DNA from: Mucilaginibacter sp. PAMC 26640
GTDB taxonomy: Bacteria > Bacteroidota > Bacteroidia > Sphingobacteriales > Sphingobacteriaceae
Reading direction: 5' to 3'
Assembly (NCBI GenBank): GCA_001596135.1
Contig: CP014773.1
Location: forward strand, 4,898,001-4,962,000
Length of the DNA: 64,000 bases
A program made the translations under genes and the position numbers. The first letter of the stretch is position 1; each line of letters opens with the position of its first letter. This document shows positions 5,674 through 24,886 of this stretch, piece by piece. Below the pieces are notes generated by a model. The model worked only from the letters and a program-made list of their open reading frames with translations, was not told where the DNA came from and ran no database searches.

Positions 5674-6327
5674 ATGAGTAAGATAAAAGCCTGCATTTTC
5701 GATCTCGACGGGGTAATAGTTGATACCGCCGTATATCATTATCAAGCCTGGAAACGCCTGGCCAATGAACTTGGGTTCGACTTTACCGAACACCAAAATG
5801 AACAATTAAAAGGCGTTAGCCGCATGGCTTCGCTGGAACTGATCCTGGGCTGGGGTAACGTAACCGGTACAACCCAGGCCGAAAAAGAAGAAATGGCTAC
5901 CCGTAAAAACGATTGGTACACGGAGATGATCGGCAAGATGACCCCTGCGGAGATCCTGCCAGGCGCAAAGGAATTTGTGCAAAGCTGCCGAGATGCGGGG
6001 ATTAAAACCGCTATCGGCTCGGCCAGCAAGAACACGCCGACTATTTTGGAGAAATTGAATCTGATGCCACTGTTTGATGCCATCATAGACGGCAATAGTG
6101 TCACCAACCCCAAGCCGGACCCTGAGGTATTTTTAAAAGGTGCAGCAGCCGTGGGCGTTACCCCTGCCGACTGTGTTGTATTTGAAGATGCCGTTGCCGG
6201 GATTGAGGCTGCATTAAACGGAGGGATGAAAGCCGTGGGTATTGGATCACCGGATATGCTTACCAAAGCCAATATTGTGGTAAGTGGTTTGGATAAATTT
6301 GACCTGGAGATGCTGGAGAAATTGTAA
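5674..6327 (+). CDS. pgmB: Beta-phosphoglucomutase
   Basis: 217 aa HAD-superfamily enzyme of the usual length. The nucleophile motif FDLDGVIVD (D10, D12) and the subfamily-specific KGVSR loop at ~47-51 identify beta-phosphoglucomutase rather than a generic phosphatase. GSASKN, NPKPDPEVF and VFEDAVAGIEAA supply the remaining HAD motifs. It interconverts beta-glucose 1-phosphate and glucose 6-phosphate in the cytosol. The usual maltose or trehalose phosphorylase partner is not next to it. A sugar-phosphate phosphatase is the main alternative. Confidence 0.9.
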   Translation: MSKIKACIFDLDGVIVDTAVYHYQAWKRLANELGFDFTEHQNEQLKGVSRMASLELILGWGNVTGTTQAEKEEMATRKNDWYTEMIGKMTPAEILPGAKEFVQSCRDAGIKTAIGSASKNTPTILEKLNLMPLFDAIIDGNSVTNPKPDPEVFLKGAAAVGVTPADCVVFEDAVAGIEAALNGGMKAVGIGSPDMLTKANIVVSGLDKFDLEMLEKL

Positions 6328-6365: not shown

Positions 6366-7106
6366 GTGAAATTAAAACTGTTTACTTTTTGTGTGATGCT
6401 GTTTAGTGCAGCTTATGCCGAAGCACAGCCTTTGCCGAAGATGACCATTAAGCCGCTGACCAAAAATTACTACGTGGTTACTTCTTATGGCTACCCGGGT
6501 AAAGGCGAACCGCCCTTCCCGGCCAACAGCCTGTTTGTGGTTACCGATGCCGGCATTATACTCATTGATACCCCATGGAGCGAGGAACAAACGCGCCAAT
6601 TGGCAAACCTACTGCAAAGCACTTATCATAAAAAGATAGTGCTTTGCATAGCCACACACTTTCATCCCGACCGGACCATTGGGTTCGACGTGCTTAAAAA
6701 GCAAGGTACAAAAACCTTTACCAGCCAGCTAACCTACAAACTTGCCAAACAGCATGGCGAAAAGCTGCCGGAATTCACTTTCGCGCGAGACACTACGTTT
6801 AACATTGGCGGCGTTACGCTTAAAACCTTTTACCCCGGCGAAGGACATACACAGGATAATATCGTGGTTTGGTTCCCTGATCGCCTGATTTTGGTTGGGG
6901 GATGCCTCGTAAAAAGCCTGGAAACAAACAGCAAAGGCTACACAGCCGATGCCAGCCTGAAGCAATGGCCGGTGAGCATCAAAAAACTGATCCGCCGGTA
7001 TGGCCGCGCCAAATATGTTATTCCCGGCCACCAGGGCTGGCAAGGCGGAATATCAGCATTGAGCCATACAATTGATGTGGTAAACGGGACAACGCCAGAG
7101 CCCTGA
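6366..7106 (+). CDS. Subclass B1 metallo-beta-lactamase
   Basis: 246 aa from a GTG start, needed to keep the whole signal peptide (cleavage after AYAEA, ~residue 20). All B1 zinc ligands are visible: H98, H100 and D102 in THFHPDRT, H161 in GEGHTQDN, C180 in VGGCLVKS and H222 in PGHQGW. The Cys ligand separates it from B3 enzymes and general MBL hydrolases. Such enzymes hydrolyse penicillins, cephalosporins and usually carbapenems in the periplasm. It follows pgmB on the same strand by 38 bp and is probably an intrinsic chromosomal gene, since no mobile element is near. Confidence 0.92.
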   Translation: MKLKLFTFCVMLFSAAYAEAQPLPKMTIKPLTKNYYVVTSYGYPGKGEPPFPANSLFVVTDAGIILIDTPWSEEQTRQLANLLQSTYHKKIVLCIATHFHPDRTIGFDVLKKQGTKTFTSQLTYKLAKQHGEKLPEFTFARDTTFNIGGVTLKTFYPGEGHTQDNIVVWFPDRLILVGGCLVKSLETNSKGYTADASLKQWPVSIKKLIRRYGRAKYVIPGHQGWQGGISALSHTIDVVNGTTPEP

Positions 7107-7140
7107 GCAAATGAATAGGTATAAGTAATTCGGCATTTAT

Positions 7141-7168
7141 GTGCGATAGGGATATTCTACTATCGCAC
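7141..7168. terminator. Hairpin between convergent genes, candidate bidirectional terminator
   Basis: Perfect 9-bp arms GTGCGATAG (7141-7149) and CTATCGCAC (7160-7168) around a 10-nt loop. It sits between the stops of the converging metallo-beta-lactamase and lipoprotein genes. Neither side has a good T-tract, so termination strength is uncertain. Confidence 0.5.
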
Positions 7169-7176
7169 AAAGAGCC

Positions 7177-7557
7177 CTACCGCCCCTGTTCTGCGTTAAC
7201 TTTAGCTTTCTGTTCAGTAACCGCTTTAGCCGCTTCTGCGAGCAATGCCTTACCCGGCTCATCCAGTTTCGTGACGGCGTTGCCGTTGTACTCATATTTA
7301 ACTCTGCCTTTATCGTCTCCTTCTGCTTTTATCTTTTGGCCGTTATGCTCATATTTCAAAAAGCCACCGTCAGAAATATAATCAATACCGGTTTTTTGCT
7401 CATCAAAAACCACTGTGCCCGAATATTCAACCTTTTGTATGTTCCCATTTTCGTTAATAGAGATCACCGTTCTGCGATGCCCGGGTTGGCGGCAGGAAGT
7501 CGATGTGCTTAATATTGCTACGGACAATAAAGCAAAAACCAGGTTTTTATAGCTCAT
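7177..7557 (-). CDS. Small lipoprotein of unknown function
   Basis: 126 aa started at the ATG at 7557, preceded by an A-rich TTGAAAAAA. The 10-residue upstream extension to 7587 would spoil the signal peptide. The N-terminus MSYKNLVFALLSVAILSTSTSC is a lipoprotein signal with the Cys at ~residue 22. The mature part carries short beta-type repeats (KVEYSGTVVFDE, LKYEHNGQKIKAE, VKYEYNGNAVTK), suggesting a small beta-sheet surface protein. No family recognised. Confidence 0.75.
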   Translation of the reverse strand: MSYKNLVFALLSVAILSTSTSCRQPGHRRTVISINENGNIQKVEYSGTVVFDEQKTGIDYISDGGFLKYEHNGQKIKAEGDDKGRVKYEYNGNAVTKLDEPGKALLAEAAKAVTEQKAKVNAEQGR

Positions 7558-7778
7558 TTTTTTCAAATTGATTGAATTAATAAACAAATATAAACATTAC
7601 ATAGTAATATGCAATACATAGTACTATTTTAATTAAATCAATTTTCACATTTGCGTTTAAACCTAGAAACTACTTGCAACAGTTTCCAATTCGGCTATTG
7701 TATTTCACCCTGATATCAATATATTTAGTGATTGCTAAATAAACCTGCTTAAAAGCTCTCATTCGCTGAATATAATTC

Positions 7779-8990
7779 ATGTATAATAAAAAACTACTGT
7801 TTTTAATACTGTGCCTGTTGCCTGTTGCGGCTATACTAACACAATGCTTAAGTGAAAAAAAAGCAGCAGACCCACGTGGTCCCGAATATGCAGGGCAGGC
7901 AACCTGCAACAGTTGCCATAAAAATATAGGCAGCTCTTACCTGCACACAGCACACTATATGGCCTCGCTGCCAGGTGATGCCAAAAGTATCCAGGGCAGC
8001 TTTGCAAGCGATAGCAATACCGTAATTTATAACGACCACACTAAAATCAAATTCCAAAAAACTGATAGCGGCTATTACCAAACCAGTTTTGTTAATGGTG
8101 AAAAAACACAAAGTGCTCGCATGGATATTACCATGGGCGGCGTAAAAGGAGAAAGCTATTTATATTGGAACGAAAACGAGCTACTGCAGTTACCAGGATC
8201 GTACGACAATAAAAAACGCCATTGGATCATTAGTCCGGGGTACGATACCACCATTGCAAGTTTCGACCGGATGATAACGCAGCTCTGCATGGAGTGCCAC
8301 GCTTCGTTTACACGTACCGAAGCAGCAAAAGTGGCCAGCTTTGGAGGGGATGTTGTAGGCTTTGAAAAAGGATCGGTTATCTTAAGCATCGATTGTGAAA
8401 GGTGCCATGGCCCGGCAGCGCAACATGTGAAATTTCACCAGGACAATCCGGCAGAAAAAAAGGCTAAATATTTAACGGTTATCAGCGCTTTGAGCAGGCA
8501 GGCCAAAATTGATTTGTGCGGCACCTGCCACTCGGGCACCAGTACCATTACATCAAAGTCTATTTTTGATTTTAAACCCGGCGATAAACTGGCAGATTTT
8601 AAGAAGCATGCCCCATCCGCCACCCCGCTAGACTATGCGCATATAGATGTTCACGGCGACCAGATGGATATGCTCAAAACCAGTAAATGCTTTATCAGCA
8701 GCCAAATGGACTGCTCTACCTGCCATAACACACATCAAAATGAACGCAACAATTTAACTGCCTATACAAGCCGTTGTTTAACTTGCCATACAACGGCAAA
8801 ACACAACCTCTGCAAGCTGACAGGCAAGGTGGATCAGGCCATCCTTAGCGCAAAATGTATCTCGTGCCATATGCCGGCGCTTCCGTCAAAAGCAATTATT
8901 AACGAGTCGGAATCGGTATTAGTGAATACCCATCATATTGCCATCTACCCGGATGAAGCTAAAAAAGTGTTGAACTATTTAAAAAAGTAA
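7779..8990 (+). CDS. Seven-heme c-type cytochrome lipoprotein
   Basis: 403 aa. The N-terminus has a lipoprotein signal (AILTQC, lipidated Cys ~23). Seven CxxCH heme-attachment motifs are visible: CNSCH (43-47), CMECH, CERCH, CGTCH, CSTCH, CLTCH and CISCH. The opening pattern EYAGQATCNSCHKNI with a following HTAH is typical of cytochrome c554-like multiheme proteins. It should sit in the periplasm or on the outer membrane and carry electrons. It converges with the FG-GAP/haloperoxidase/SusCD gene set with only 29 bp between stops, so it is a neighbour rather than an operon member. The electron partner is unknown. Confidence 0.9.
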   Translation: MYNKKLLFLILCLLPVAAILTQCLSEKKAADPRGPEYAGQATCNSCHKNIGSSYLHTAHYMASLPGDAKSIQGSFASDSNTVIYNDHTKIKFQKTDSGYYQTSFVNGEKTQSARMDITMGGVKGESYLYWNENELLQLPGSYDNKKRHWIISPGYDTTIASFDRMITQLCMECHASFTRTEAAKVASFGGDVVGFEKGSVILSIDCERCHGPAAQHVKFHQDNPAEKKAKYLTVISALSRQAKIDLCGTCHSGTSTITSKSIFDFKPGDKLADFKKHAPSATPLDYAHIDVHGDQMDMLKTSKCFISSQMDCSTCHNTHQNERNNLTAYTSRCLTCHTTAKHNLCKLTGKVDQAILSAKCISCHMPALPSKAIINESESVLVNTHHIAIYPDEAKKVLNYLKK

Positions 8991-9012
8991 GGCGGTAATC
9001 AATATTACCGCC
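8991..9012. terminator. Bidirectional terminator between convergent units
   Basis: GGCGGTAAT (8991-8999), loop CAAT, ATTACCGCC (9004-9012). It begins at the base after the cytochrome stop codon and lies 8 bp from the stop of the opposing gene. Read on the minus strand, the arm is followed by TTACTTTTTT, a fair T-tract. Confidence 0.75.
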
Positions 9013-9019
9013 CTGCTAA

Positions 9020-10564
9020 TTACTTGGTTATGTGATTTTCCAGCACCACAAAAGGTGTATGTTCATCCCAGTTTGGCATAAAGTTGGGCTGAAATAAAAA
9101 CCCTGCGGCGTAATTGCCGAGTATAATATCCGGTTTACCATCTTGATTCAGATCGCTGACATTCATAGTCATCCAGCGTCCGTTCTTGCTCACCGGAACA
9201 CCGTGTGGGATAAATTTTGAAGCACCTGTTTGTTCAAAGTAAATAAACTCTTCGGCCGGATTATTCTTCATGTCAGCAAAAAAGGCAATAGTGGCGATAT
9301 CAATATCACCGTCTCCGTCAAAATCTTGAGCAATGGCTTTGGTACAACCGTTTACAGGATAAAACCAGGTTTGCTTAAAATTAAAGTTGCCGGTATTTTT
9401 AAAGATATACAGCCCATGGTAGGGTTTCAAAATGCGCGATTCCCGGAAATTATAGCCGCAGGTATAAATTAAATCTAAATTACCGTCGTGATCTATATCC
9501 GTTAACTGGAAACTGGTAGAACCATTTACCGGTGGAAATTTGAGTAATTCATGCGCAGCAAAACCGCCATGTTTATTGTTTAGGTATAGGGTAAGGCCCT
9601 CATCAACCGCACCGTATAAGATCATCATATCCAGCCACCCATCGTGGTTGTAATCGACTGTTATGGCCTGTACGGCACCGGGGCGCTCGTTGATAATGGT
9701 TTGCTTAAATGATTTACCATCTGTAGTTGGTTTAAATTGGTATAAACCGCCTTTAGTGTTCCCCGCTGCCAGTACAATAACCTCTTTCCGGCCATCCTTA
9801 TCAAAATCAGCATTTACCGTTTGTACAGGTCGCGGCAGGTCGCTTTGGATCTGTACGAGTTCACCCTTCCCGCTAAGGTTTGTTTTAAATACTTTTCCAT
9901 TCGGAAAATCAATGGCATCTAAACGGCCGATGCAGGAAACAATGGCCTGGCTTAAACCCGCAGAATCAGTATCAAAATTAACGTCGACAGCTGCTGAGGG
10001 TAACCCAATTGCTGATGTTGTTTTGAATTGAGCATCCCATCCGGTTAAGTTAAGGGCTACGGCATCACCCGTGTAAATTTTCGATCCTTTAGGGTCAGCA
10101 GCTACTACCGTAGTAAAACAGATGTCGTTTTTGCGCGGGGCTTTTTTAAGCGTAAAACCAGCCCAGTCGTTTACCAGTGGCATTGGCCTTTTTGCGGGCA
10201 TCAGCGTATCAGGCGCCAGCTTTTTGTAGTAGTCAACTATAGCACCCCAATGCTGTAGTGACAAGCCGGAGGTATCATTGTCTGTTTTATAATAATCAAT
10301 ACCATAAGTTTTGATACCGAAATATTTCGCCATCAACGGCAGGGTATGCACCGTCCAAACTTGTTTAGTGAGGGCACCGGCAGGTACCAGCGAATGGCAT
10401 TTGGTGCAGTGCTGCTGCACCAATGCTTTCCCATCGGCAAGGGTATCACCGGTTAATTCATAAACCCCGGCGGGTTTGCTTTTACATCCGTTAAGTACGG
10501 TGCTCAACGATAACGCCAATACACCCGATAATATAAAAGAAGTAACTAAAAAGGTCCTTTTCAT
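9020..10564 (-). CDS. Lipoprotein with cytochrome c domain fused to FG-GAP (VCBS) repeats
   Basis: 514 aa. A lipoprotein signal ends at LNGC (Cys27). A single heme motif CTKCH (53-57) lies in a small cytochrome c-like domain, followed from ~residue 170 by FG-GAP/VCBS repeats with Ca-binding loops such as DFDKDGRKE, DYNHDGWLD, DIDHDGNLD, DFDGDGDID and DLNQDGKPD. These repeats normally form a beta-propeller. It is the last gene of the minus-strand set, 27 bp after the haloperoxidase-like gene. A role as a surface electron acceptor or donor is inferred from the domain pairing. Confidence 0.87.
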   Translation of the reverse strand: MKRTFLVTSFILSGVLALSLSTVLNGCKSKPAGVYELTGDTLADGKALVQQHCTKCHSLVPAGALTKQVWTVHTLPLMAKYFGIKTYGIDYYKTDNDTSGLSLQHWGAIVDYYKKLAPDTLMPAKRPMPLVNDWAGFTLKKAPRKNDICFTTVVAADPKGSKIYTGDAVALNLTGWDAQFKTTSAIGLPSAAVDVNFDTDSAGLSQAIVSCIGRLDAIDFPNGKVFKTNLSGKGELVQIQSDLPRPVQTVNADFDKDGRKEVIVLAAGNTKGGLYQFKPTTDGKSFKQTIINERPGAVQAITVDYNHDGWLDMMILYGAVDEGLTLYLNNKHGGFAAHELLKFPPVNGSTSFQLTDIDHDGNLDLIYTCGYNFRESRILKPYHGLYIFKNTGNFNFKQTWFYPVNGCTKAIAQDFDGDGDIDIATIAFFADMKNNPAEEFIYFEQTGASKFIPHGVPVSKNGRWMTMNVSDLNQDGKPDIILGNYAAGFLFQPNFMPNWDEHTPFVVLENHITK

Positions 10565-10591
10565 CGTCAGATCAAAAAATTACTTGTTCGC

Positions 10592-11911
10592 TTAGTTTTG
10601 CAGCTTTAATTTATTCCAGATATAGTCCCCGATTTTGCGGCCCTGATCAGCACCTGCATCTACACTATTGCGGTAATGGATGCCCCCATAAAAACGACTG
10701 ATAGACGTTTCATCAGATGCTTTCATAAATGATTTAAAATGCCGCTGCATACCGATATAACGCAGGTCGCTGGTATCATCATATTCGAAATTGTCACCAA
10801 ACAGGTGGGTAAGTATCACCGCAGAGGCCGCACTGATATCACTATGCCCGCTAGGGTACTCAGGGAAAGGCGGCGTTTGCAGCATGGGTAACCATTTCTG
10901 GTCAATTTTATCATTGATAACCGTAACCGGGCGAATGTATTTGGTATCGTACTTCACCTGCCAGCCACAAATAAAAGCATCAAAAAGGGCAATTGCAGTT
11001 AAGGCATATGCTTGGGCCGTTTTTACAGCGCTAGCGTGCGTTTTCTTGCAGGCAATTGCGGTGATGCCGATCCAGTGGCCCCCGGGAGTGATCTTTTTGT
11101 TCACAAACATCATGTGCCCGTTATGCTGTATCACAAAAGGGTTATCATCCCAAAAGCGCGCTATTTGCACCTGCTCCTCTGTAAGGTTTTTGCTCTGCTC
11201 ATAAACTTCTACATTTTGCTTAAAGTACTCGCTGGTTTTATCTTCGCTATACGGCGGCGGCGGCGGCAGCTTAAACTGGGCGGACGAATCCAGCACAAAG
11301 GTATGCATGGTTCCCCAGCAGTATTCTACGCCATCCAGGTAATCCGGCGCGGTTGGGCGCCATTGCCCGTTGTCATTGCTACCCAAAAACCGGGGTTTGC
11401 CACGCGTTTGCGGGTAATTGTCTACCGCGGCGCGGGCCATAATTGCTTTCCCAATCTTCTCCCCAAAATCTACCGATCGGGAAAAGGTGGCCGTATCCAG
11501 GTTGTCCTGGTACATGGCAAATACTTTATCCTCGTACTTCTTCAGGGTATCTACCGAAAAGGTAATCTTATGCGCCACCGTAAAAAACGCTTTGGTGGCG
11601 GCAAGCGCGTAATTATATTTAAGGCCCTTTGCAGGCTCGGGCATTTTTTTGAACCCGTTTAACTGGTTTACAATTGAAGCGTATTTCGGATCGGCATGGC
11701 GCATGGCTTCGTAGGCAGCAAGCGATGTGTAGCCATAGATGCGGCTGGCTACCGGGGGAGTAAACACATCATAAATGATCACCTGGGTTAGCTGGTCAAC
11801 ATTTTCATGCAACACTTCGGCATCACTCTTTAATGCAATTTTAGGGGTCTGCCGACAAGCGCCGAACGAAAGGCATAGCATAGCGGCAATTAGTACATGA
11901 AAGTATCTCAT
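10592..11911 (-). CDS. Vanadium-dependent haloperoxidase/PAP2-family lipoprotein
   Basis: 439 aa. A lipoprotein signal ends at SFGAC (Cys19). The vanadate/phosphate site is complete: K320-x6-R327-P328, P353-S-G-H356 in EYPSGHSDIS, and S405-R406-x5-H412 in SRFYGGIHYR. Spacing and total length fit the bacterial vanadium haloperoxidase-related family rather than short PAP2 lipid phosphatases. If vanadate is bound it would oxidise halides with H2O2; a phosphatase activity remains possible. It lies 19 bp downstream of the FG-GAP/ASPIC gene and 27 bp upstream of the cytochrome-propeller gene, which indicates cotranscription. Confidence 0.85.
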   Translation of the reverse strand: MRYFHVLIAAMLCLSFGACRQTPKIALKSDAEVLHENVDQLTQVIIYDVFTPPVASRIYGYTSLAAYEAMRHADPKYASIVNQLNGFKKMPEPAKGLKYNYALAATKAFFTVAHKITFSVDTLKKYEDKVFAMYQDNLDTATFSRSVDFGEKIGKAIMARAAVDNYPQTRGKPRFLGSNDNGQWRPTAPDYLDGVEYCWGTMHTFVLDSSAQFKLPPPPPYSEDKTSEYFKQNVEVYEQSKNLTEEQVQIARFWDDNPFVIQHNGHMMFVNKKITPGGHWIGITAIACKKTHASAVKTAQAYALTAIALFDAFICGWQVKYDTKYIRPVTVINDKIDQKWLPMLQTPPFPEYPSGHSDISAASAVILTHLFGDNFEYDDTSDLRYIGMQRHFKSFMKASDETSISRFYGGIHYRNSVDAGADQGRKIGDYIWNKLKLQN

Positions 11912-11930
11912 AGTTCAATCATTGCAATAA

Positions 11931-14900
11931 TTAGTTTAAAGGTATATCTCGTTTGTGGCCAACATTATCGGTTATAGTTACCGACTGCATTGAGGCATCA
12001 ATATTAAAAAATCTAGCCGACTGTGACAAGAAGGATTGCCCATTATAAAATTCCTGTTTTGCGCTGGTACCGTTCTTATATTTTATGGTGGCAAACATAT
12101 CCGCAGGCAGCAATTTGAAAGTTTTAACCTGCCTTTTCAATTCAAATACCTTCATCGCATCTTTATATTGCGTGGCAGCTATTAAATATCTCCCTTTTGC
12201 ACTACGCAACTTCACAAGGGCCTTACCATCTCCGGGGATATAAATGCCACTCTGCATGATACTTAGGGGTTTAAAGCCTCCTTTTCCGTTCCCTTTCAGC
12301 AGCAATCCATTAAAGGCATCATAGCGGCCGGTGGTTACTTCGGTACCAAAATCATTGCCGTTCAGCAACACATCCAGGTTACCGTCGCCGTCAAAATCGT
12401 CTATCACTATACCACTCAACTGTGATAGCTGCGCCTCGGCCGGCAGCGGGATCATGGTGAACTTACCCTTACCGTCATTGCGCAGGTAAACAGACCCCAG
12501 CATATTCGCCTTTAATCTGATCGCCCCTTTGCGCATCTCCGGGGTTAATACGGAATCCATTGTACTAACAGCAAACGACTTATAATTTTGATACTTGATC
12601 CGCATGCTGATCATTTGCTTAATGATGTCATCCCTTGTTTGCGCAGGAAATTCCTGTAACACGCCTTCTTTATCTTTCAGGAACACCGAAGGGATGGCAT
12701 CGTAGCTGCCATTGTTATCAAAATCCTTGGCTGTGATGTAGATGGGATACTTATCGCTGGCTTTATAAAAGGTGTTGGTGCCGGTATTACCTACAATATA
12801 ATCGATGTCTCCATCGTGGTCAAAATCGCCGCCGGCAATGGTATTCCACCAGCCCAGTTTATCGGCTACACCTGTATTTCCTGTTTGGTTTTTAAAAACA
12901 CCGTGGTCGTTCTTTAAAAAGGTAACCGGCATCCATTCCCCGGTAATCACCAGGTCGGGCCAGCCGTCGTTATCATAATCTGTAAAAGTTGCATCGCATA
13001 CCAGCCCTATCTTATTGAGGCCCCTGGCAGCTACGGGGGTGGCATCGGTAAACTTAATCTGCCCGTTTTTGCTGTCGTTCCGCAAAATAAAGCTAGATAC
13101 CGGTTTAGGGTAGTTCCATGGCTCAACCCTGCCGGAAACAAACAGATCCAGCGAACCATTTTTGTCATAATCTACCGCCTTTACGCATAATTTACTGGTG
13201 AAATTTACGGGCAAGGCATTGGGCTGCAAGGTAAAGTCGCCTTTCCCATCGTTAGCATAAACCCGGTCCTGGTAGGATTTTGACCCCGGTTCGTCCTCAT
13301 ACCCACCGCTTGCGGCGTAAAGGTCTAAATCACCATCGCCATCTGCATCAAATAAAAGTAGGCCCTCATCCTTGTACCGGTCGGCAGATGCAATAGCGGT
13401 AAGTAAATTTCGCTGCATGAACTTACCGTTAGCCTGCTGCAATAAAAGTTGCGCAGGGTATTTTGCGGTACCGCCTATCACCATATCGTCGAAGCCATCG
13501 CCGTTTACATCGCCCACTGCAACGGCCGGCGTATACTCCGAAAATTTATGCGGAATCAGTTTCTGGATATTAAAATCTATAAAATCGTCGCTTTGATGCA
13601 GGTAGTTGATGCCAAGCGATTTGGTCACTTCGCTAAAAAGCGCCCCATTATTAACTTTAGGCGATTGGAAACTATAGGGCTGCGCAGCATTTGCTATACT
13701 GACCGTAAGCAGTTGATCTGCTTTTACATTTCTGAGGGTTTGCTGGCGGCCATTTTGCCATTTGATCACCACAGAATCCAGCCCGGATACTTTACCCAGG
13801 CCAAAATGCGCACTGTTTTGAATGGTACTAAGGTAGCCGCGGAAGGGCGTATTCTCATATACCTGGTGTTTGCCGTGGTCGTAATAAATATCTGCCCAGG
13901 CACCTATCCCATCTTTGTTCTGCGGGTTACCTGCAAATTTTACCTGCAGGTAATGATTGGCCTCTTTATCCTGATCGCGCGAGGTGTTGCGGTATAAAAA
14001 AGCCTCATCATCAATATTGTTGATCACCATATCCACGGCGCCATCATTATCCAGGTCGGCATAGGCGGCGCCGTTTGAGAATGACGGGATATCCAGCCCC
14101 CAGCTTTTGGTAACATCATCAAAGCCCAGGTTGCCATTATTCTGAAAAGCGTAATTGGGTATTTTAACAACCGGGATCTGCTCCAGCACCTGCTTTTTAG
14201 TTGCCACCGCAAAAGACTCGTTCCGGAAGGCGATGAAGTCATGATCCGTAACATCGCGTGGATACCCGTTGGTAATTACTATATCTCTGAAACCATCATT
14301 ATCAAAATCGGTGATCATCGGCCCCCAGCTCCAATCGGTTTGCGCAACTCCGCTATAAAAGGCTATCTCGCTAAAGATAGGCGCTCCAACAGAATCGTTC
14401 TGGCCCAAACGAGGGCCCTGGTTCAGTTGCAGGGTGTTATGATTATATTGATACTGGTAGTTGTAACGATCAAAATTTTGGTAAAGCTGGTAGGCTGTGC
14501 CCGGTACAAACATCTTTTTGCGATAGTTGTCCTCCGGATCCATATCCAGCTCAAAAACATCGGCAAGGCCATCATTATTAATGTCTTCGATATCCTGCCC
14601 CATAGCGCTGGTAGCGGTATGTTTAAAGTACTCCCGGGTACGGTCGGTAAACGTGCCGTCGTGGTTATTGATGTATAAAATATTATTGGGTAAAAAATCA
14701 TTCGTCACGTAGATATCCTTCCAGCCGTCGCGGTTAATATCTACGGTGGTGGTAGCATGGCCGTAGCCTTCAATCAATACGCCTGATTGTTTGGATACAT
14801 CCTTATACACGCCATGTTTGAGTGCAGGGTCATACTCGTTACGGTACAACCGGCCTGTACTGCGCGCCGATCCGTCAACGGTAAGTGGCCGGAAAGAACT

Positions 14901-15503
14901 GGTATTATCATTCGGCTGTACTTCATTCACCGTTAGGTACATATCCAGATCCCCATCGTTGTCGTAGTCAAAAAACGATGCCATGGTAGAGTGGATGTTG
15001 ATATCCAGCCCGTAGGCTTTAGCCTCTTCTTTAAAATGCGGAACGCCGTTCTTATCAGCCCCCTGGTTAATATACAGCAGGTTCATTCGCTTAACCGGGC
15101 TGTTTAAAAGCGTATTGCAAACGTAAATATCTGCAAGTCCGTCGTTATTGATATCTACAACTGCTACGCCTCTGCCCCAGCCCCCTTTGCCACCCACACC
15201 GGCAGCTTCGGTAACATCATCAAATTGCATGTCGCCTTTGTTGAGGTACAGCTTGTTGTATACCTGGTTGCCTATGAAATAAATATCCTGCTTGCCATCA
15301 TTATTAAAATCGCCGATGCCTACGCCGCCGCCATTATAGATATTCAATTTATCTAAGGGGTTGATGGAATCGTTTTCGGTTACCAAATTATTGAATTTGA
15401 TACCGGAGTGAGAGGAGTCGATCTTTTGGAAAAGCGTGGATTTTTTACAGGAGAAAAGCAAGCAGGGTAAGGTTAGAAAAAGCAGAAAGTAAGCGCGTCT
15501 CAT
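11931..15503 (-). CDS. Giant FG-GAP/VCBS lipoprotein with ASPIC/UnbV domain (CRTAC1-like)
   Basis: 1190 aa. The lipoprotein signal ends at LFSC (Cys19). A first block of FG-GAP repeats runs ~55-500 with loops such as DFNNDGKQD, DINNDGLAD, DYDNDGDLD and DINRDGWKD. An ASPIC/UnbV domain occupies ~535-602 (FRGYLSTIQNSAHFGLGK, VVIKWQNGRQQ). A second propeller-like block follows from ~640 to ~1090. The protein is probably anchored on the cell surface and binds calcium. ASPIC/UnbV proteins often lie beside SusC/SusD pairs in Bacteroidota, but their function is not established. A terminator-like hairpin separates it from susD upstream. Confidence 0.9.
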   Translation of the reverse strand: MRRAYFLLFLTLPCLLFSCKKSTLFQKIDSSHSGIKFNNLVTENDSINPLDKLNIYNGGGVGIGDFNNDGKQDIYFIGNQVYNKLYLNKGDMQFDDVTEAAGVGGKGGWGRGVAVVDINNDGLADIYVCNTLLNSPVKRMNLLYINQGADKNGVPHFKEEAKAYGLDINIHSTMASFFDYDNDGDLDMYLTVNEVQPNDNTSSFRPLTVDGSARSTGRLYRNEYDPALKHGVYKDVSKQSGVLIEGYGHATTTVDINRDGWKDIYVTNDFLPNNILYINNHDGTFTDRTREYFKHTATSAMGQDIEDINNDGLADVFELDMDPEDNYRKKMFVPGTAYQLYQNFDRYNYQYQYNHNTLQLNQGPRLGQNDSVGAPIFSEIAFYSGVAQTDWSWGPMITDFDNDGFRDIVITNGYPRDVTDHDFIAFRNESFAVATKKQVLEQIPVVKIPNYAFQNNGNLGFDDVTKSWGLDIPSFSNGAAYADLDNDGAVDMVINNIDDEAFLYRNTSRDQDKEANHYLQVKFAGNPQNKDGIGAWADIYYDHGKHQVYENTPFRGYLSTIQNSAHFGLGKVSGLDSVVIKWQNGRQQTLRNVKADQLLTVSIANAAQPYSFQSPKVNNGALFSEVTKSLGINYLHQSDDFIDFNIQKLIPHKFSEYTPAVAVGDVNGDGFDDMVIGGTAKYPAQLLLQQANGKFMQRNLLTAIASADRYKDEGLLLFDADGDGDLDLYAASGGYEDEPGSKSYQDRVYANDGKGDFTLQPNALPVNFTSKLCVKAVDYDKNGSLDLFVSGRVEPWNYPKPVSSFILRNDSKNGQIKFTDATPVAARGLNKIGLVCDATFTDYDNDGWPDLVITGEWMPVTFLKNDHGVFKNQTGNTGVADKLGWWNTIAGGDFDHDGDIDYIVGNTGTNTFYKASDKYPIYITAKDFDNNGSYDAIPSVFLKDKEGVLQEFPAQTRDDIIKQMISMRIKYQNYKSFAVSTMDSVLTPEMRKGAIRLKANMLGSVYLRNDGKGKFTMIPLPAEAQLSQLSGIVIDDFDGDGNLDVLLNGNDFGTEVTTGRYDAFNGLLLKGNGKGGFKPLSIMQSGIYIPGDGKALVKLRSAKGRYLIAATQYKDAMKVFELKRQVKTFKLLPADMFATIKYKNGTSAKQEFYNGQSFLSQSARFFNIDASMQSVTITDNVGHKRDIPLN

Positions 15504-15530
15504 AGATCAATACTACACAAATAACTAAAA

Positions 15531-15567
15531 TAAAAAAAGAGGAGAAGATACAGATCTCCCCCTCTTT
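15531..15567 (-). terminator. Intrinsic terminator/attenuator between susD and the FG-GAP gene
   Basis: AAAGAGGAGA (15536-15545) pairs with TCTCCCCCTCTTT (15555-15567) with a small bulge. On the minus strand the stem is followed by a T-run (TTTTTTTATTTT). It lies just after the susD stop and would end, or partly attenuate, transcription before the downstream redox genes. Confidence 0.7.
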
Positions 15568-15584
15568 ATAAACATTATAAACCT

Positions 15585-17435
15585 TTAGTAATTAGGGTTT
15601 TGTTTTAATGTACCTTTTGATAAATCAATTTGAAATTGAGGTATCGGGTAAACTTCATTTTTGTTAGAACCGAATTTGGCTACTTTCATAACTGCTGAGG
15701 TAAAAGTGTCGCCAAAGTCACGTGTATTTTTTAGGAATTTCTCAATTTCAGTGGTCATGATATTTCCTGCAGGTCCGCCATTAACAGCATCCCAGCGTGA
15801 AAGGTCAAAATAACGGTGTCCTTCCATACCCAATTCGATTTTTCTCTCAAAATAAACTGCTTTGCGAGCGTAAGCCACACCATTAGCTGTGAATTGACCT
15901 GTATACAATCCTACCTTATAATTAGCAGCAAATTGCGTATTGTCAACAAGTGGCTTAGTTGCATCAGGTTCACCTTTATCATTTACGCCGTAACCAGTTA
16001 GCTTACCTTTAACCCAACCGGTTTGATCAGCCGCACGAGATCTAACCTGGTTAACCAAATTTTCTGCAACCGCTAAAGTACCCGTTTCTACATTACACTC
16101 TGCCGCCCATAACAACACATCAGCAAAACGAATCGCATTATAGCTGTTTGATGTTGCCTGGTTTGCTGCCCAGCCACCGTAAGTGTCTGATGTAGTTGCT
16201 TGTGCAGCTTTGTAGTAAACGTTTTTGATTGGCAGGTACGGTCCACCGTTTGGCTGATCACGTGCCCAGGCAGCTCCCGGGCAAATTCCCCAATCCAAGT
16301 ATGGAATACCACGGCGACCAACTGACCAGTCTAACCTTGCATCAAGCAATTCATTTCCAGGAGTAAATATAGTTGCTGCTGCTACAGCCTGATCATTTTT
16401 GATATACCCGTTCTGATAAGTATCGAGCAAAGGCAAGCCATTAGCATCAACTTTAAATGAATTTACAAAATCAAATGTCGGCTGGAAAAATCCGCAGCAA
16501 CCTGCGGGACCACCAGATGGAAAGTTTAAAACGCTACCAGCGTTACCATTTAATCCGTTAGCACCATCACCTACAGATGTTTGTACGACAAACACGCCTT
16601 CAGGTCCGTTTTTGGTTGATGGATTAAAGTTATTAGCATAAGCACCCAAGGCATATTTAGCTCCCGAAGCTGTAACACCATTAGCAATCACATCGGTTAA
16701 GATCTTCAATGCGTCAGGATACTTGTGCTCAAACATCATCGTTTTTGCTTCGAAGGCTAAAGCCGCCCATTTGTTTGCACGGCCAACCTGTGGCTGGCTG
16801 TTCGGCAATACTGCCGCTGCTGCAGCAAAGTCAGCCTCTATTTTATCCCAGATAGGCCCGCTGTTAGGCACATTATAATTACCAGCTGCGTACGTGATGG
16901 TCTCATCAACATATGGTACATTCTTCCAAATCTTAGCCGCTTCCAAATGATAAAAGGCACGTAAAAATCTAGCTTCAGCTATGTATTGCTTCTCCTGATC
17001 GGCACTAACCGATCCATCCTTTACGGTAGGTAAAAGGCGCAGAACATCGTTTGCACGCTGTACACCAGCGTAGCAAATACGCCATTTATGATCCAAATAA
17101 TCATTGGCTCCCGTTGCGCTAAACGCTTCAAGATTAGCTGCAGCCGGTTGGTCACCAGGGTTAGATCCTTTAAAAGCGTCACCCGCTACCACACTACCGT
17201 AAACCCAGTTATCGGTCCCGGTTTCCCAAGGAGAACCCGCCTGGCCATCAAACACACCGTCCACCAGTGAATATGCACCGATTAGCAAGCCATCTACACC
17301 TGTACGAGTTGCAACAACTTCCGGGATCAAAGAACCGATAGGAGCTTGTTCCAGGTACTTCTTGCAAGAATAAGTCGACCCAAGCATTAAAAGTGCTGCC
17401 GGGATCAATACTTTTATTTTAAGACTTTTTTTCAT
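15585..17435 (-). CDS. RagB/SusD-family substrate-binding lipoprotein
   Basis: 616 aa, typical SusD length. The lipoprotein signal ends at STYSC, followed by KKYLEQAPIGSL, the usual SusD mature start. The body shows TPR-like helices (RWRICYAGVQRANDVLRLLP, QYIAEARFLRAFYHLEAAKIW) and a C-terminal signature (RYFDLSRWD, YPIPQFQIDLSKGTLKQNPNY). It forms the lid of the SusC channel and binds ligand at the cell surface. It starts 31 bp after susC. The ligand cannot be deduced: no glycoside hydrolase lies in the same unit. Confidence 0.95.
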   Translation of the reverse strand: MKKSLKIKVLIPAALLMLGSTYSCKKYLEQAPIGSLIPEVVATRTGVDGLLIGAYSLVDGVFDGQAGSPWETGTDNWVYGSVVAGDAFKGSNPGDQPAAANLEAFSATGANDYLDHKWRICYAGVQRANDVLRLLPTVKDGSVSADQEKQYIAEARFLRAFYHLEAAKIWKNVPYVDETITYAAGNYNVPNSGPIWDKIEADFAAAAAVLPNSQPQVGRANKWAALAFEAKTMMFEHKYPDALKILTDVIANGVTASGAKYALGAYANNFNPSTKNGPEGVFVVQTSVGDGANGLNGNAGSVLNFPSGGPAGCCGFFQPTFDFVNSFKVDANGLPLLDTYQNGYIKNDQAVAAATIFTPGNELLDARLDWSVGRRGIPYLDWGICPGAAWARDQPNGGPYLPIKNVYYKAAQATTSDTYGGWAANQATSNSYNAIRFADVLLWAAECNVETGTLAVAENLVNQVRSRAADQTGWVKGKLTGYGVNDKGEPDATKPLVDNTQFAANYKVGLYTGQFTANGVAYARKAVYFERKIELGMEGHRYFDLSRWDAVNGGPAGNIMTTEIEKFLKNTRDFGDTFTSAVMKVAKFGSNKNEVYPIPQFQIDLSKGTLKQNPNY

Positions 17436-17466
17436 AACTATTGATTTTATATGAAGTTAGCTATTA

Positions 17467-20400
17467 TTAAAATGTAAGGTTTACACCAAAAATAAACCTG
17501 CGTTCGTTGTTCGGGTAGTTACCTAAGTCGATGCCCGGGCTGTTACGATCAACTGATTGCAACTCGGGGTCTGGTCCTGTATATTTGGTAGCGGTGAACA
17601 GATTAGTACCTTGAACATAAACATGTAGTTTATCAACACCTATCATTTTCAACCCTGCAGGTGAAAAGGCGTAGCCAACCTGTACTGACCTTAATTTCAG
17701 GAACGAACCACCTTCTACATAATAAGAGCTGATCGCATCTGCGGTACTGAAGTTGGTTGTTTTTTCTAAAATCGGCGTTTTAGCATTTGCGTTTTGGGCT
17801 GCGGTTTTTGAAGGATCCCATGCGTTGTTCAACAGGTCGAGACTTTTGTTACCGGTTTGTGAACCGTAAAAGTTAGTCCAGTATTTAATTGAATTATAAA
17901 TATCACCGCCGTGCGAGCCATAGAATACTGCTGCAAAATCAAAATTTTTGTATGCAAGATTCATGTTTACACCATAAGTAAAATCTGGGTTTGGGTTACC
18001 AATTTTCGTACGGTCGGCATCGGTTATGCGGCCATCGCCGTTTACATCAGCGTATCGGAAGCGGCCCGGAAGTGCATCTTGTTGATATACTGGTTTTGCG
18101 CCAAATAGATCGGCTTTTTGTGCAGCATTCAATGCATCTATTTCTGCTTGTGTATTCCAGTAACCTTGTACTTTATAACCATAGAACTGGCCTATAGAAC
18201 CACCAACCTGGTTGTATACAACGCTACCATTACGTATGCCTGTAGTGAAGAAAGGAGCACCTAATTCAGTAATTTTGTTATTAATAGTAGCTAAGTTAGC
18301 ACCAATGCTGTATGTTAAATCACCTGTTTTTCCATGGTAGGTAGCACTGATATCTAAACCTTTGTTAACAACTGTACCAAAGTTAACTGTAGGCCATGCA
18401 CTCTCCAACCCACCTACTAAGGCTGATAATGGAACCTGCACAAGTAGTTTAGATGTTGTTTTCTTGTAATATTCAACGGTCAGATCCAAATGATTGAATA
18501 AAGATGCATCAAAACCTACGTTAAATACCTTATCATTTTCCCAAGTGGTGAATGGGTTACCGATAGAATTAGAGAAATACCCAGGAACAACAGAACTGGA
18601 AGATCCTGTAATTGGGTAAGAAGATGAACCAGCACCGCCGCCAAATGCAGAATAAGCACTGTTTACACCCACGTTACCATTGTAACCAGATACACCATAA
18701 CTACCGCGGATCTTTAAGTCGTTAACAAATTTAACATCTTTAAGGAACTCCTCCTGTGAAACGCGCCAGGCTGCTGAAACCGCAGGAAAGGTGCCCCATT
18801 TTTGACCTGTTGAAAATAGTGAGCTACCATCACGACGAACTGTAGCGCCTAAGATATACCTGTCATTGAACGTGTAATCTAAACGGCCAAAAAATGACAT
18901 GATCTTATTTAGACCGTTGAACGTACTGTTTGCAGTTGTTTGGCCTGCTTGTCCATTGGAAATGTTAGCATAAAAAGGATCAAGTGAGAACAGGTTTTTG
19001 GCATTGGCATTGATATTACGTCCACTATAGCTTCTCTGTTCGAAACCGCCTAATAAATTTAGGCTGTGTTTGCCAAATACTTTTTTGTAAACCAGCGTAT
19101 TGCTAAAGTTGAAATTGGTATTGTAAGACGCCCCTTCGCTATAGCTATTGTTACCTCCGTGTGCTTCACCGCTATCATATTGACGATAGCCGATATTGTA
19201 GTAATAATTATTTGCTACATCAGCACTGAAAGAGGTTCGTGCTGTAAAGTGTTTTAGGAAATCAACCTCGGCGAAAGCAGTACCTTGCATACCGAATAAG
19301 TTGGTATTGGTGGTTTTTTGACGCTCCTGGATACCAACCGGGTTAAGCGCGTTACCTAAAGCAGCCGGACCGGCATAAGTACCACCCAAATTACCTGCAA
19401 TATCGCGCACAGGGATGATAGGAAGTGTACGGTAAGTTTCAGAGATCGGGTTACCTTCGTTTTGGTTACCACCATTTGCTAAACCACCACCACCATTAGG
19501 CGACTGGATGTAGAAAAAGCTGAAATTCTCGCCTAAACGAACATGATCCTTAACGTTGAAGGTGGTGTTTACGCGCGATTGGTAACGTTTAAAATAAGTA
19601 TTAATCAGCGTGCCTTGTTGGTTTGTATAACCTAAAGATAAGAAATAAGCATTTTTGTCGTTTGCGCCACTCGCACTTATCGAGTGCTGTTGTATTGGAG
19701 CTGCTTTAAAAATCTCATGATACCAATCAGTTCCGGCACCTTTAACAAATTTTTGGATGAGATAATCCTTAGTCGGATCATTATCCAGGTGATAGTTAGG
19801 CAAAAAGTTACTTGCATTTGCCTGATTAAATACACCTTTTGAGCCAGCACCCGACTGATAACCGTAATCGTAAATTTTACCGTTATTATCCTTTATTAAA
19901 TCATTTCCAGGGTCAACCTTGTTTAACAACTGCTCGTACTGATCAGCGTTAAGTGTGTTGAAAATGTTACCACTTAATGGGCGGGTTGTACCGTAGAAAG
20001 CATCATAGGAAATGGTTGCCTTGCCGGATTTACCTTTTTTGGTAGTTACCACAACAACACCGTTACCACCGCTTACACCATAGATAGCTGCAGCACCGGC
20101 ATCCTTTAACACCGAAATAGATTCGATATCATTTGGATTGATGTTTGAGATACTACCTGTTTGCAAACCATCAACAACATATAGCGGCGATGAATTACCA
20201 AAGTTACTGGTACCACGGATAATAACTTGTGCGCCGGCACCCGGTGCACCCTGTGTAATAACATTAACACCTGCTGCCTGACCTTGTAATAAAGTTTCTG
20301 TACTTACAGAAGGAACAGATTTAGCTGCCGCAATATTTACCGTAGTTACAGACCCTGAGATGTCCTTTTTACGCTGTGCGGTATAACCGGTTACTACTAC

Positions 20401-20724
20401 TTCGTTTAATGCAGTGTTGCTCGATTGCAGTGTTACGCTGATGTTGTCTCCAGCTACGGTAAGTTCCTGAGTGGTAAAACCGAGATAAGAAAATACCAAA
20501 ACGTCTCCGTTATTTACGCTGATGGTAAATTGTCCGTTAACGTCTGTTTGTGTGCCGGTAGTAGTGCCCTTTATTCGCACCGTGGCGCCAACTACGGGCA
20601 GCTTGTCGTCGCTGCCGATAACACGGCCTGTGTGTTTTGTTTGGGCTGAAACTACCAATGAAGACACCAGGCAGCATAAAAGCAGGCAAAGTGCTCTTCC
20701 CTTGAGGAGTAGAGTTTTAAACAT
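17467..20724 (-). CDS. SusC/RagA-family TonB-linked outer-membrane transporter
   Basis: 1085 aa. Signal peptide (cleavage after VVSAQ), then a carboxypeptidase-regulatory-like beta domain (~residues 30-105, GRVIGSDDKLPVVGATVRIK). The TonB-box-like NEVVVTGY precedes a plug domain with PLYVVDGLQ and IESISVLKDAGAAAIYG. The remainder is a 22-strand barrel ending in RRFIFGVNLTF with an aromatic C-terminus. It imports oligomers captured by SusD using TonB energy. It leads the minus-strand set. No sigma/anti-sigma pair or hybrid sensor sits next to it, so its regulator is elsewhere or absent. Confidence 0.95.
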   Translation of the reverse strand: MFKTLLLKGRALCLLLCCLVSSLVVSAQTKHTGRVIGSDDKLPVVGATVRIKGTTTGTQTDVNGQFTISVNNGDVLVFSYLGFTTQELTVAGDNISVTLQSSNTALNEVVVTGYTAQRKKDISGSVTTVNIAAAKSVPSVSTETLLQGQAAGVNVITQGAPGAGAQVIIRGTSNFGNSSPLYVVDGLQTGSISNINPNDIESISVLKDAGAAAIYGVSGGNGVVVVTTKKGKSGKATISYDAFYGTTRPLSGNIFNTLNADQYEQLLNKVDPGNDLIKDNNGKIYDYGYQSGAGSKGVFNQANASNFLPNYHLDNDPTKDYLIQKFVKGAGTDWYHEIFKAAPIQQHSISASGANDKNAYFLSLGYTNQQGTLINTYFKRYQSRVNTTFNVKDHVRLGENFSFFYIQSPNGGGGLANGGNQNEGNPISETYRTLPIIPVRDIAGNLGGTYAGPAALGNALNPVGIQERQKTTNTNLFGMQGTAFAEVDFLKHFTARTSFSADVANNYYYNIGYRQYDSGEAHGGNNSYSEGASYNTNFNFSNTLVYKKVFGKHSLNLLGGFEQRSYSGRNINANAKNLFSLDPFYANISNGQAGQTTANSTFNGLNKIMSFFGRLDYTFNDRYILGATVRRDGSSLFSTGQKWGTFPAVSAAWRVSQEEFLKDVKFVNDLKIRGSYGVSGYNGNVGVNSAYSAFGGGAGSSSYPITGSSSSVVPGYFSNSIGNPFTTWENDKVFNVGFDASLFNHLDLTVEYYKKTTSKLLVQVPLSALVGGLESAWPTVNFGTVVNKGLDISATYHGKTGDLTYSIGANLATINNKITELGAPFFTTGIRNGSVVYNQVGGSIGQFYGYKVQGYWNTQAEIDALNAAQKADLFGAKPVYQQDALPGRFRYADVNGDGRITDADRTKIGNPNPDFTYGVNMNLAYKNFDFAAVFYGSHGGDIYNSIKYWTNFYGSQTGNKSLDLLNNAWDPSKTAAQNANAKTPILEKTTNFSTADAISSYYVEGGSFLKLRSVQVGYAFSPAGLKMIGVDKLHVYVQGTNLFTATKYTGPDPELQSVDRNSPGIDLGNYPNNERRFIFGVNLTF

Positions 20725-21434
20725 GAGATTTGAGATTTAGTTGATTAATATATTTGATTTAAGATCTTGGATTCATCGTGTTAAGTGATACAATAAAATC
20801 TGCGCGGGAAAGTAACGTAAGAAAACTTTAAAACATTTTCTTTTGAAAAAGGGGTGAGATGCCCTTTGGATATGAAAAGATCAAAAAGAAAAAAATGTAA
20901 AAGTTTTATCATCTAGTTAAACTAACCTGTCTAAAAAATTATTTGCCTGCAAGCACCAATTCTAACTTTTAACAATTATCGGGTGCCTATTTATCCTTTA
21001 AAATTTGTTCGCTTTTCCTGCAATAGAAAAGTTTATAATGGTAATCATCTAATATAAATAGAGTGTAAAGGTTACACAAGGCCGTTTTGTAGAATTATGA
21101 ATTATTTATTTTTTTACAACTTTATTGTTACAATTTACATTTTAAAAAAATTTTGTTGTATACATTTTAACAAAAGACGCGGTTTACTAAAAAATTATCA
21201 ATGCCAAAAAAACTATCTATTGTGGATTTTGACAGAATTTATCTCCATTTTGTTTAAGCACCGCGCTAAATTCCATTTTCGCAAAATAAAATTAAATAAT
21301 GGGGGCATTTTTACCGTTATGAAATTAAATAACTGTTAAATTTACATTAATTCATATTTTAAGTGATTTGTAAGCCACGGGCAGATACCGTTCAACCGCT
21401 AAAATTTTGTTTCGCGAAAATTTGACATTTGTAT
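20725..21434 (-). other. AT-rich region upstream of susC
   Basis: About 710 bp without a convincing gene between susC and the bglX terminator; it must contain the susC promoter and a long leader. I found no TAnnTTTG box in the right orientation close to susC. A plus-strand frame at 21097-21339 is low-complexity (Phe, Lys, Ile, Asn) and is taken as noncoding. No tRNA or known riboswitch recognised. Confidence 0.5.
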
Positions 21435-21471
21435 AAAAAAAATATGCCTTAGCGTTATGCTAAGGCATATT
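21435..21471 (-). terminator. Intrinsic terminator of bglX
   Basis: Perfect 13-bp arms AATATGCCTTAGC (21441-21453) and GCTAAGGCATATT (21459-21471) around loop GTTAT. Read on the minus strand the stem is followed by TTTTTTATAC. It lies 36 bp after the bglX stop. Confidence 0.88.
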
Positions 21472-21506
21472 CTACCCGTTTTTGTTTAACCGTTTTTTAA
21501 TACATT

Positions 21507-23816: not shown

Positions 23817-23860
23817 TGGTAATATGGTTGGGTAATAATTAACATCAATTAAACCTAAAT

Positions 23861-23989
23861 AATAGCGTACTATTGATTAGGATTAATAATTATAACTATA
23901 ATTGGTTCTTAAAAAAAATAAACTAAGGGTGTAATTGGTACACAATTGTAATTATTAAATTTAAACATTCAAAGTATTATTGTATAATA
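23861..23989. promoter_or_regulatory. Candidate operators between bglX and its divergent regulator
   Basis: Two palindromic elements lie in the 179-bp divergent region. AATAGCGTACTATT (23861-23874) has 5-bp inverted arms. TATTAT-TGT-ATAATA (23975-23989) ends 6 bp before the regulator ATG. Both share ATAATAG followed by a TA-containing core. Position and similarity suggest binding by the adjacent winged-helix regulator, including autoregulation. The region is AT-rich, so chance palindromes are possible. Confidence 0.35.
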
Positions 23990-23995
23990 GTATAA

Positions 23996-24757: not shown

Positions 24758-24886
24758 AATCAGCTGATAGCTTTTTAATTGGCAAAAAACACTTAAGATG
24801 CAGCGCATGTGCTACGGCAAATTAAAAACGGTTTGCAGCCAAACAAATAAAAAAAACTATCTTAAGCCCACATCCTTACTATTAAT

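Follow-up and report, generated by a model that had tools for sequence, protein, structure and literature searches.

A SusC/SusD locus of Mucilaginibacter with FG-GAP, haloperoxidase-type and cytochrome genes beside a putative sugar-responsive regulator

The gene block and its proteins

We analyzed a 64,000-nucleotide (nt) stretch of Mucilaginibacter sp. PAMC 26640 (positions 4,898,001 to 4,962,000 of contig CP014773.1; host genome 5.6 Mb), hereafter the window. In it, a SusC/SusD gene pair (SusCD) is followed on the same strand by genes for three predicted lipoproteins, FGU, VHPO and cytFG, and this block faces the gene of a seven-heme cytochrome, cyt7. The original prediction had read the six genes as a possible cell-surface redox system that may oxidize a polymer or an aromatic compound outside the cell and import the products. 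The six genes are real: all of their open reading frames (ORFs) were open at the coordinates below, and their family assignments were confirmed. Family scores are in bits, each set against its curated cut-off; GH denotes glycoside hydrolase.

7779 to 8990, plus strand: cyt7, seven-heme cytochrome with seven CXXCH motifs, predicted lipoprotein, convergent with the minus-strand block
8989 to 9014, minus strand: terminator-like hairpin ending the minus-strand block
9020 to 10564, minus strand: cytFG, cytochrome c domain with an FG-GAP propeller, predicted lipoprotein, one CXXCH; FG-GAP_3 97.7 bits (cut-off 26.9)
10592 to 11911, minus strand: VHPO, vanadium-haloperoxidase-type PAP2 protein, predicted lipoprotein; PAP2 33.8 bits (cut-off 27.2)
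11931 to 15503, minus strand: FGU, FG-GAP/ASPIC-UnbV protein, CRTAC1-like, predicted lipoprotein
15536 to 15567, minus strand: terminator-like hairpin between SusD and FGU, a probable attenuator
15585 to 17435, minus strand: SusD; SusD_RagB PF07980 111.8 bits (cut-off 23.1)
17467 to 20724, minus strand: SusC; TIGR04056 817 bits (cut-off 368)
20725 to 20760, minus strand: conserved AT-rich leader immediately 5′ of the SusC start, with the 12-mer ATTAATCAACTA and a footprint
21063 to 21079, minus strand: operator-like site TTGTGTAACCTTTACAC upstream of SusC
21439 to 21473, minus strand: terminator-like hairpin 3′ of GH3
21507 to 23816, minus strand: GH3 beta-glucosidase (BglX-like); NF011678 987 bits (cut-off 666)
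23929 to 23945, minus strand: operator-like site TTGTGTACCAATTACAC in the GH3/regulator gap
23996 to 24757, plus strand: NrtR/AraR-family regulator (Nudix and winged helix), divergent from GH3

SusC and SusD both pass their family models and are adjacent, making a SusC/SusD pair, and the next gene upstream of SusC on the same strand is GH3. The intergenic gaps are short (SusC-SusD 31, SusD-FGU 81, FGU-VHPO 19, VHPO-cytFG 27 and cytFG-cyt7 29 nt). Since cyt7 is convergent, its transcript would be separate from that of the minus-strand block. The sigma-70-type promoter scan returned 34 sites vs 33.8 in shuffles, and thus we claim no promoter. Searching Rfam, we found nothing above threshold in 7000-25000.

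VHPO matched 4cit/4usz over residues 8-437 of its 439 residues (1.2e-122), and the 12 distinct PDB sequences that matched it are all named haloperoxidase, chloroperoxidase or NapH. PMC5064120 describes 4USZ as the Zobellia vanadium iodoperoxidase. The vanadate-site motif (K-x6-RP, [PS]GH, SR-x5-H) is present in strict form in the window and in 31/41 orthologs, rising to 40/41 when Ala is allowed for Ser (window included). The Ser of [PT]SGH is Ala (TAGH or PAGH) in L071, L075-L078 and L080, a change that may have altered or ended vanadate binding, and L060 has no motif. These matches make VHPO homologous over its full length to the Z. galactanivorans iodoperoxidase, with which it shares the active-site motifs; vanadate binding and halide oxidation are predicted by homology.

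In cytFG, the CXXCH motif and M78 are invariant in 16/16 aligned proteins, and we infer that Met 78 is the heme ligand of a class-I-type cytochrome c domain; against the Pfam Cytochrome_CBB3 model the protein scored 16.8, below the cut-off of 27. Its structure model (predicted local distance difference test score, pLDDT, 69.8; heme region poor) best matched aldos-2-ulose dehydratase (4a7k/4a7y/4a7z) in the propeller part, with Z 31.8 and a root-mean-square deviation of 3.0 over 349 residues. Aldos-2-ulose dehydratase acts on keto-sugars. It is the nearest solved fold of the modeled propeller, compared by fold alone, but the identity is 12%, cytFG bears a heme domain, propellers are common, and the next propeller folds follow closely (Z 29.4 for LGI1, and lower).

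FGU carries UnbV_ASPIC (PF07593, 69.9 bits vs 23.4) and FG-GAP_3 (201.6 vs 26.9), which makes it an ASPIC/UnbV protein; its PDB match was CRTAC1 (9etn, 3.1e-12). The domain set is that of CRTAC1, but FGU is twice as long, is a predicted lipoprotein and lies behind SusCD. Its structure model (pLDDT 28.6) was set aside, and no inference was drawn from it. For cyt7, seven CXXCH motifs were present in the window protein and in 10/10 locus homologues from the first 40 loci described below. It scored below cut-off with the OmcA/MtrC (25.7 vs 209.3) and DmsE (37.8 vs 192.2) decaheme NCBIfam models and has seven, not ten, hemes. In support of the original prediction, VHPO keeps the haloperoxidase motif and the cytochromes keep their heme motifs.

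Surface-exported Bacteroidota lipoproteins carry an acidic export signal after the lipobox Cys. Applying a crude lipobox rule, we found no acidic residue at +2 to +7 in 34/37 FGU, 32/38 VHPO and 32/38 cytFG proteins; this was also the case for 10/38 of the SusD control.

Conservation and variation of the locus

A VHPO relative, paralogs counted, occurs in 100/120 genomes of the genus, with seven matches in the window's own genome. To compare loci, we took the surroundings of selected VHPO orthologs, at most 20 kb each, in two rounds, 40 then 20 loci, picked from the listed VHPO matches and mostly on long contigs. Gene maps came from a longest-ORF script and BLAST to the window proteins, with no gene caller, and the start codons may be off. 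SusC-SusD-FGU-VHPO-cytFG was contiguous on one strand in 36/40 first-round loci (37 counting L050, where SusD is split in two ORFs) and in 49/60 overall. GH3 lay directly upstream of SusC in 42/49 of these core loci, usually beside a divergent NrtR/AraR-family regulator. A GH2 gene was found near the last cytochrome in 28/60 (18/40 in the first round, 10/20 in the second) and is absent there in the window. The layout is therefore regulator, divergent from GH3-SusC-SusD-(hairpin)-FGU-VHPO-cytFG, then a second cytFG (cytFG2) or a convergent cyt7, often with GH2 nearby. The original prediction had stressed the absence of a glycoside hydrolase; these GH3 and GH2 counts contradict it, and through GH3 the locus has the co-located glycoside hydrolase of a polysaccharide utilization locus. 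Relatives of cytFG are also present in Mucilaginibacter pankratovii, M. psychrotolerans and M. gilvus.

The gene after cytFG was a second cytFG in 32 core loci, a convergent cyt7 in 15 and neither in two (L052, L076). Thus, the predicted six-gene order held for a five-gene core, cyt7 being only one of two alternatives in the last slot. Among the 11 non-core loci, FGU and cytFG are absent from L043, the split SusD sets L050 apart, and L169 is interrupted by a contig end. No cytFG is present in L079, L172 and L173, which carry an additional FGU-like gene; L170 and L171 have SusC-SusD-FGU-VHPO, and L170-L173 all carry SusCD-FGU-VHPO without cytochromes. Their SusC is just 32-34% identical to the window's, so L170-L173 represent a different setting. 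L080 and L174 have VHPO without the other genes, and in L167 only FGU adjoins VHPO, with SusC far off at 28% identity. Four further loci with VHPO above 60% (L098, L100, L121, L125) stand outside the 60-locus count; L098 is without SusCD, L121 has the full core, and L125 comes from another genus. Minimal SusC-SusD-cytFG2 blocks without FGU or VHPO occur in L117, L123 and L124, and L117 retains GH3, the regulator and two GTGT-N7-ACAC sites. We rejected a fixed six-gene unit because the second cytFG replaces cyt7 in 32/49 core loci and VHPO, FGU, cytFG or SusCD is absent from some loci.

We also checked how the last cytochrome is distributed. The 18 best cyt7 matches among the 120 genomes, the window's included, all lie beside a VHPO ortholog (coordinates compared by eye). 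Any cyt7 match was found in 76/120 genomes, and most matches at or below 48% were in other places, including three roughly 21 kb away from VHPO. The gene adjoining the L166 locus carries six heme motifs together with a stop. Over 51 rows, the cyt7/second-cytFG label changed seven times on the FGU-VHPO-cytFG tree and six times on the SusCD tree, vs shuffled means of 13.9 and 14.2. The trees were built by a quick method and were not bootstrapped; L043, L079 and L080 were left out of the trees and the hairpin counts, and the split SusD of L050 out of the per-gene SusD alignments. On these trees, the last cytochrome is exchanged several times. That two unrelated cytochromes repeatedly replace each other suggests an equivalent role for cyt7 and the second cytFG.

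In 38-row trees, the window's genes fall into two sets. Its SusC (support 100) and SusD (99) cluster with loci that bear cyt7, apart from one row, L052, without either cytochrome; its FGU, VHPO and cytFG (99, 99, 98) and GH3 (91) cluster with loci that bear cytFG2. These 38 rows had suggested a tight coupling of SusCD type to the last cytochrome through a joint swap. The six and seven label changes over 51 rows leave a general coupling unsupported; the window's mosaic ancestry and the repeated cytochrome exchange stand on these phylogenies.

A stem-loop with a T run lies between SusD and FGU in 38/38 loci, window included. A stricter within-gap test, in which stems are paired by construction, retained 35/38 with 24 distinct arm pairs. 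The distance from the hairpin to the script-chosen FGU start was 12-46 nt in 34/35, counts that may be off with the start codons. As only this short distance is left before FGU, we read the hairpin as a probable attenuator lowering FGU-VHPO-cytFG relative to SusCD. On the 5′ side of SusC, the AT-rich 20725-20760 is near-identical in 39/39 SusC upstream regions, all of which contain ATTAATCAACTA, and the remaining long upstream region is variable; the conserved part may be a translation leader.

The window's genome gave 10 UnbV matches, nine of them over the cut-off. The nearest FGU paralog (62.9%) lies in L084 (C2:4737000-4756999), in the order SusC-SusD-FGU-3-keto-disaccharide hydrolase-cytochrome c-3-keto-disaccharide hydrolase; the other paralogs are at 33-48%. 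In L083, two FGU genes adjoin a GMC oxidoreductase. L082 has SusC-SusD-FGU-VHPO-cytFG with a DUF7133/HEAT/cytochrome c protein and a hybrid two-component regulator, and in L086 VHPO adjoins GH65.

We compared 12 cytFG-like loci (L125-L136) of the family's other genera: nine had SusC or SusD matches, L130, L132 and L134 had none, and FGU and VHPO were found only in L125. Scanning three of these family loci further, we found ThuA, a ThuA-GSDH-cytochrome c fusion, GH26, GH5, GH18 and esterase genes nearby; L126 has a GH3-like gene. In a phylum sample, 36/395 genomes and 22/170 genera had a cytFG-like gene at E <= 1e-60 (six own-genus genomes included). Outside the genus, 17 genomes supplied 20 loci, five of which have SusC-SusD-FGU collinear with cytFG (L139, L140, L142, L145, L150); VHPO is present in two of the five (L140, L150) and absent from three. 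In eight further loci, SusC, SusD or FGU matches are present but arranged differently. The neighbours in L137 include GH127 and a GFO/IDH/MocA oxidoreductase. The view of VHPO as the necessary centre of the system is not supported, given these three collinear loci and the L117, L123 and L124 blocks. SusCD-FGU-cytFG may be an older kernel to which VHPO was added, or FGU-VHPO and cytFG may be separate combining modules; L170-L173 and L117 speak for separate modules.

Regulator and operator-like sites

The regulator scored 83.7 bits with NrtR_WHD (cut-off 27; 1e-23), 41.8 with AraR_C (23.8; 1.3e-10) and 31.9 with NUDIX (21.1), and this Nudix plus NrtR/AraR winged-helix composition places it in the NrtR/AraR family. 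Its best solved relative is BtAraR (5bs6, 1.3e-40), and the window's genome has five NrtR_WHD proteins. Footprinting 38 loci with SusC upstream sequences of 650-900 bp, we found that an inverted repeat is conserved 5′ of SusC and that the GH3/regulator gaps, compared in 35 loci, hold a similar one. The form GTGT-N7-ACAC was present in 39/39 SusC upstream regions and 33/35 GH3/regulator gaps (window included), vs three matches in 719,899 bp elsewhere in the same loci. The two gaps without it (L062, L077) are short, as the script took an early GH3 start. Loci unused in motif discovery gave 13/13 SusC upstream regions, 12/12 gaps and two matches in 367,126 bp elsewhere. The exact pattern TTGTGTAMNNNTTACAC occurs in the window's genome only at the two locus sites, from which it was derived. 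GH3 and the SusC operon are thus probably regulated jointly through a shared operator-like site.

The DNA in the BtAraR crystal, GCAAAAGTGTTACTTTTACACCCATGC, is of the form GTGT-N7-ACAC, and BtAraR carrying the R34N mutation still bound DNA in the presence of 0.5 mM arabinose (PMC4666351). We counted residues in 31 regulator proteins found by pattern among 39 rows. Of the residues with which BtAraR contacts DNA, R180 and N181 have identical counterparts in 31/31, and Arg takes the place of K179 and K184 in 31/31. Of the three sugar-contact residues expected in AraR proper (R34, R86, H131), R86 and H131 are conserved throughout (31/31), but no protein has Arg at the R34 position of the arabinose pocket (31/31). 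We therefore do not class the regulator as AraR, and we predict a sugar other than L-arabinose as its effector. Compared with the Bacteroides BtAraR regulon (PMC4666351), the regulator family, the operator form and the kept R86 and H131 are alike, but R34 and the target genes differ.

Candidate functions of the locus

Taken together, we suggest that this Mucilaginibacter locus serves sugar-regulated uptake through SusCD and includes a module for oxidation and electron transfer, a reading to which we give a probability of about 0.5. The NrtR/AraR-type regulator would repress both promoters until it is released by a sugar, which is probably not L-arabinose. Joint production of GH3 and the SusC operon would follow, with FGU-VHPO-cytFG lower owing to the hairpin. 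SusCD would import a glycoside, and FGU, a CRTAC1-like propeller, would bind or process it. The cytFG protein would take electrons from glycoside oxidation and hand them to the last cytochrome. VHPO would use peroxide (and halide) to oxidize the substrate or remove peroxide, and GH3, plus GH2 where present, would hydrolyze the product in the periplasm. Like a polysaccharide utilization locus, this locus has SusC-SusD, an adjacent GH3, an adjacent sugar-type regulator and a shared operator-like site, but its operon consists mostly of FG-GAP, haloperoxidase and cytochrome genes rather than glycoside hydrolases. We count in favour of this reading the 3-keto-disaccharide hydrolases and cytochrome c at L084, the site of the nearest FGU paralog, and the cytFG-like genes of other genera behind SusCD near GSDH-cytochrome c, GH26, GH5, GH18 or GH3. 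The gene context suggests that Mucilaginibacter couple oxidation chemistry to sugar uptake.

Several observations weigh against this reading. The weakest point is the electron donor, which is missing, as the window's block is without any dehydrogenase. In the window, GH3 is 782 nt from SusC and carries its own terminator-like hairpin. Searched genome-wide with one mismatch, the operator pattern gave eight places vs seven in the reversed control, which is chance level. Besides the loss of R34, the positions of the BtAraR DNA contacts R183 and K204 are Gln and His in the regulator orthologs; as all three residues are replaced, both the effector and the DNA binding are predictions. The modules also come apart: L100 has GH3-FGU-VHPO without SusCD and cytFG, L119 has GH3 and the regulator without SusCD, and 7/20 outside-genus loci have no SusC, SusD or FGU match, their cytFG-like gene lying far from SusCD. 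The neighbours in L148 are aminotransferases and an amine oxidase, which do not fit a sugar role.

The chemistry may instead be directed elsewhere. In a model built on the original prediction, VHPO would oxidize or halogenate an extracellular polymer or aromatic compound, SusCD would import the fragments, the cytochromes would carry electrons, and glycosides would be beside the point. VHPO is indeed a good haloperoxidase homologue that adjoins FGU in nearly every locus having it, and SusCD-FGU-VHPO occurs without cytochromes in L170-L173. However, the conserved GH3, the shared operator-like site, the AraR-family regulator, the GH2 nearby in 28/60 and the 3/5 collinear phylum loci without VHPO argue against this version, and the crude lipobox rule gave no demonstration of surface export. 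We consider it unlikely; the gene context points more to glycosides. The redox genes could also be protective or competitive, with VHPO making hypohalite against rivals, or removing peroxide together with the cytochromes, during feeding on plant or algal material, the substrate itself not being processed. The optional presence of VHPO in the phylum agrees with this, and PMC9296495 reports that Zobellia vIPO3, a vanadium iodoperoxidase, is up on A. nodosum vs alginate and discusses it with algal halogenated defence. Yet the operator-like site links the operon to GH3 and a sugar-type regulator, not a peroxide regulator, and cytFG-like genes are found in sugar-oxidation contexts, leaving such a protective role improbable in our judgement.

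A third possibility is that the PAP2 protein is a phosphatase acting on phosphorylated glycans or lipids. The PAP2 motif is common to acid phosphatases, and the Ser to Ala changes and the missing motif in L060 would agree with such an activity. Against these stand the full-length 4cit/4usz match and the uniformly haloperoxidase, chloroperoxidase or NapH names of the PDB matches, and we regard a phosphatase as very unlikely. The sugar-regulated uptake reading can also be carried further. FGU and the heme-bearing cytFG could form a new Bacteroidota protein class doing or supporting oxidative, keto-sugar-type glycoside cleavage at SusCD, with electrons leaving via exchangeable cytochromes and an optional haloperoxidase using peroxide, as a phylum-wide oxidative counterpart of hydrolytic polysaccharide utilization loci. 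This extension is speculative, and we hold it to be rather doubtful.

What is known of SusCD loci mainly concerns the hydrolytic uptake of glycans. If our reading is true, a SusCD unit that combines FG-GAP/UnbV proteins with exchangeable cytochromes and belongs to an AraR-type regulon would connect the import of nutrients with electron transfer and, in loci that have VHPO, with peroxide and halide chemistry too. Bacterial UnbV/FG-GAP proteins and haloperoxidases would gain a first regulatory entry point, in an environmental genus that can be cultivated and in which the question of their substrate is directly testable. Among the papers listed in literature searches, judged by title or abstract start and with subscription papers largely outside coverage, none describes this combination. 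Haloperoxidase with SusD appeared only in a genome note, Mucilaginibacter with haloperoxidase gave none, and UnbV with SusC gave only two unrelated papers.

Beyond cyt7, the window encodes a subclass B1 metallo-beta-lactamase (6366-7106, plus strand; NF033088 244.8 bits vs 200) near a penicillin acylase (2120-4546, minus strand; PF01804 728 bits). Metallo-beta-lactamase matches lie beside the locus in four of the first 40 relatives. A HAD-family hydrolase (5674-6327; PF13419 93 bits), which we take to resemble beta-phosphoglucomutase, is also present, and a similar protein adjoins the locus in L055.

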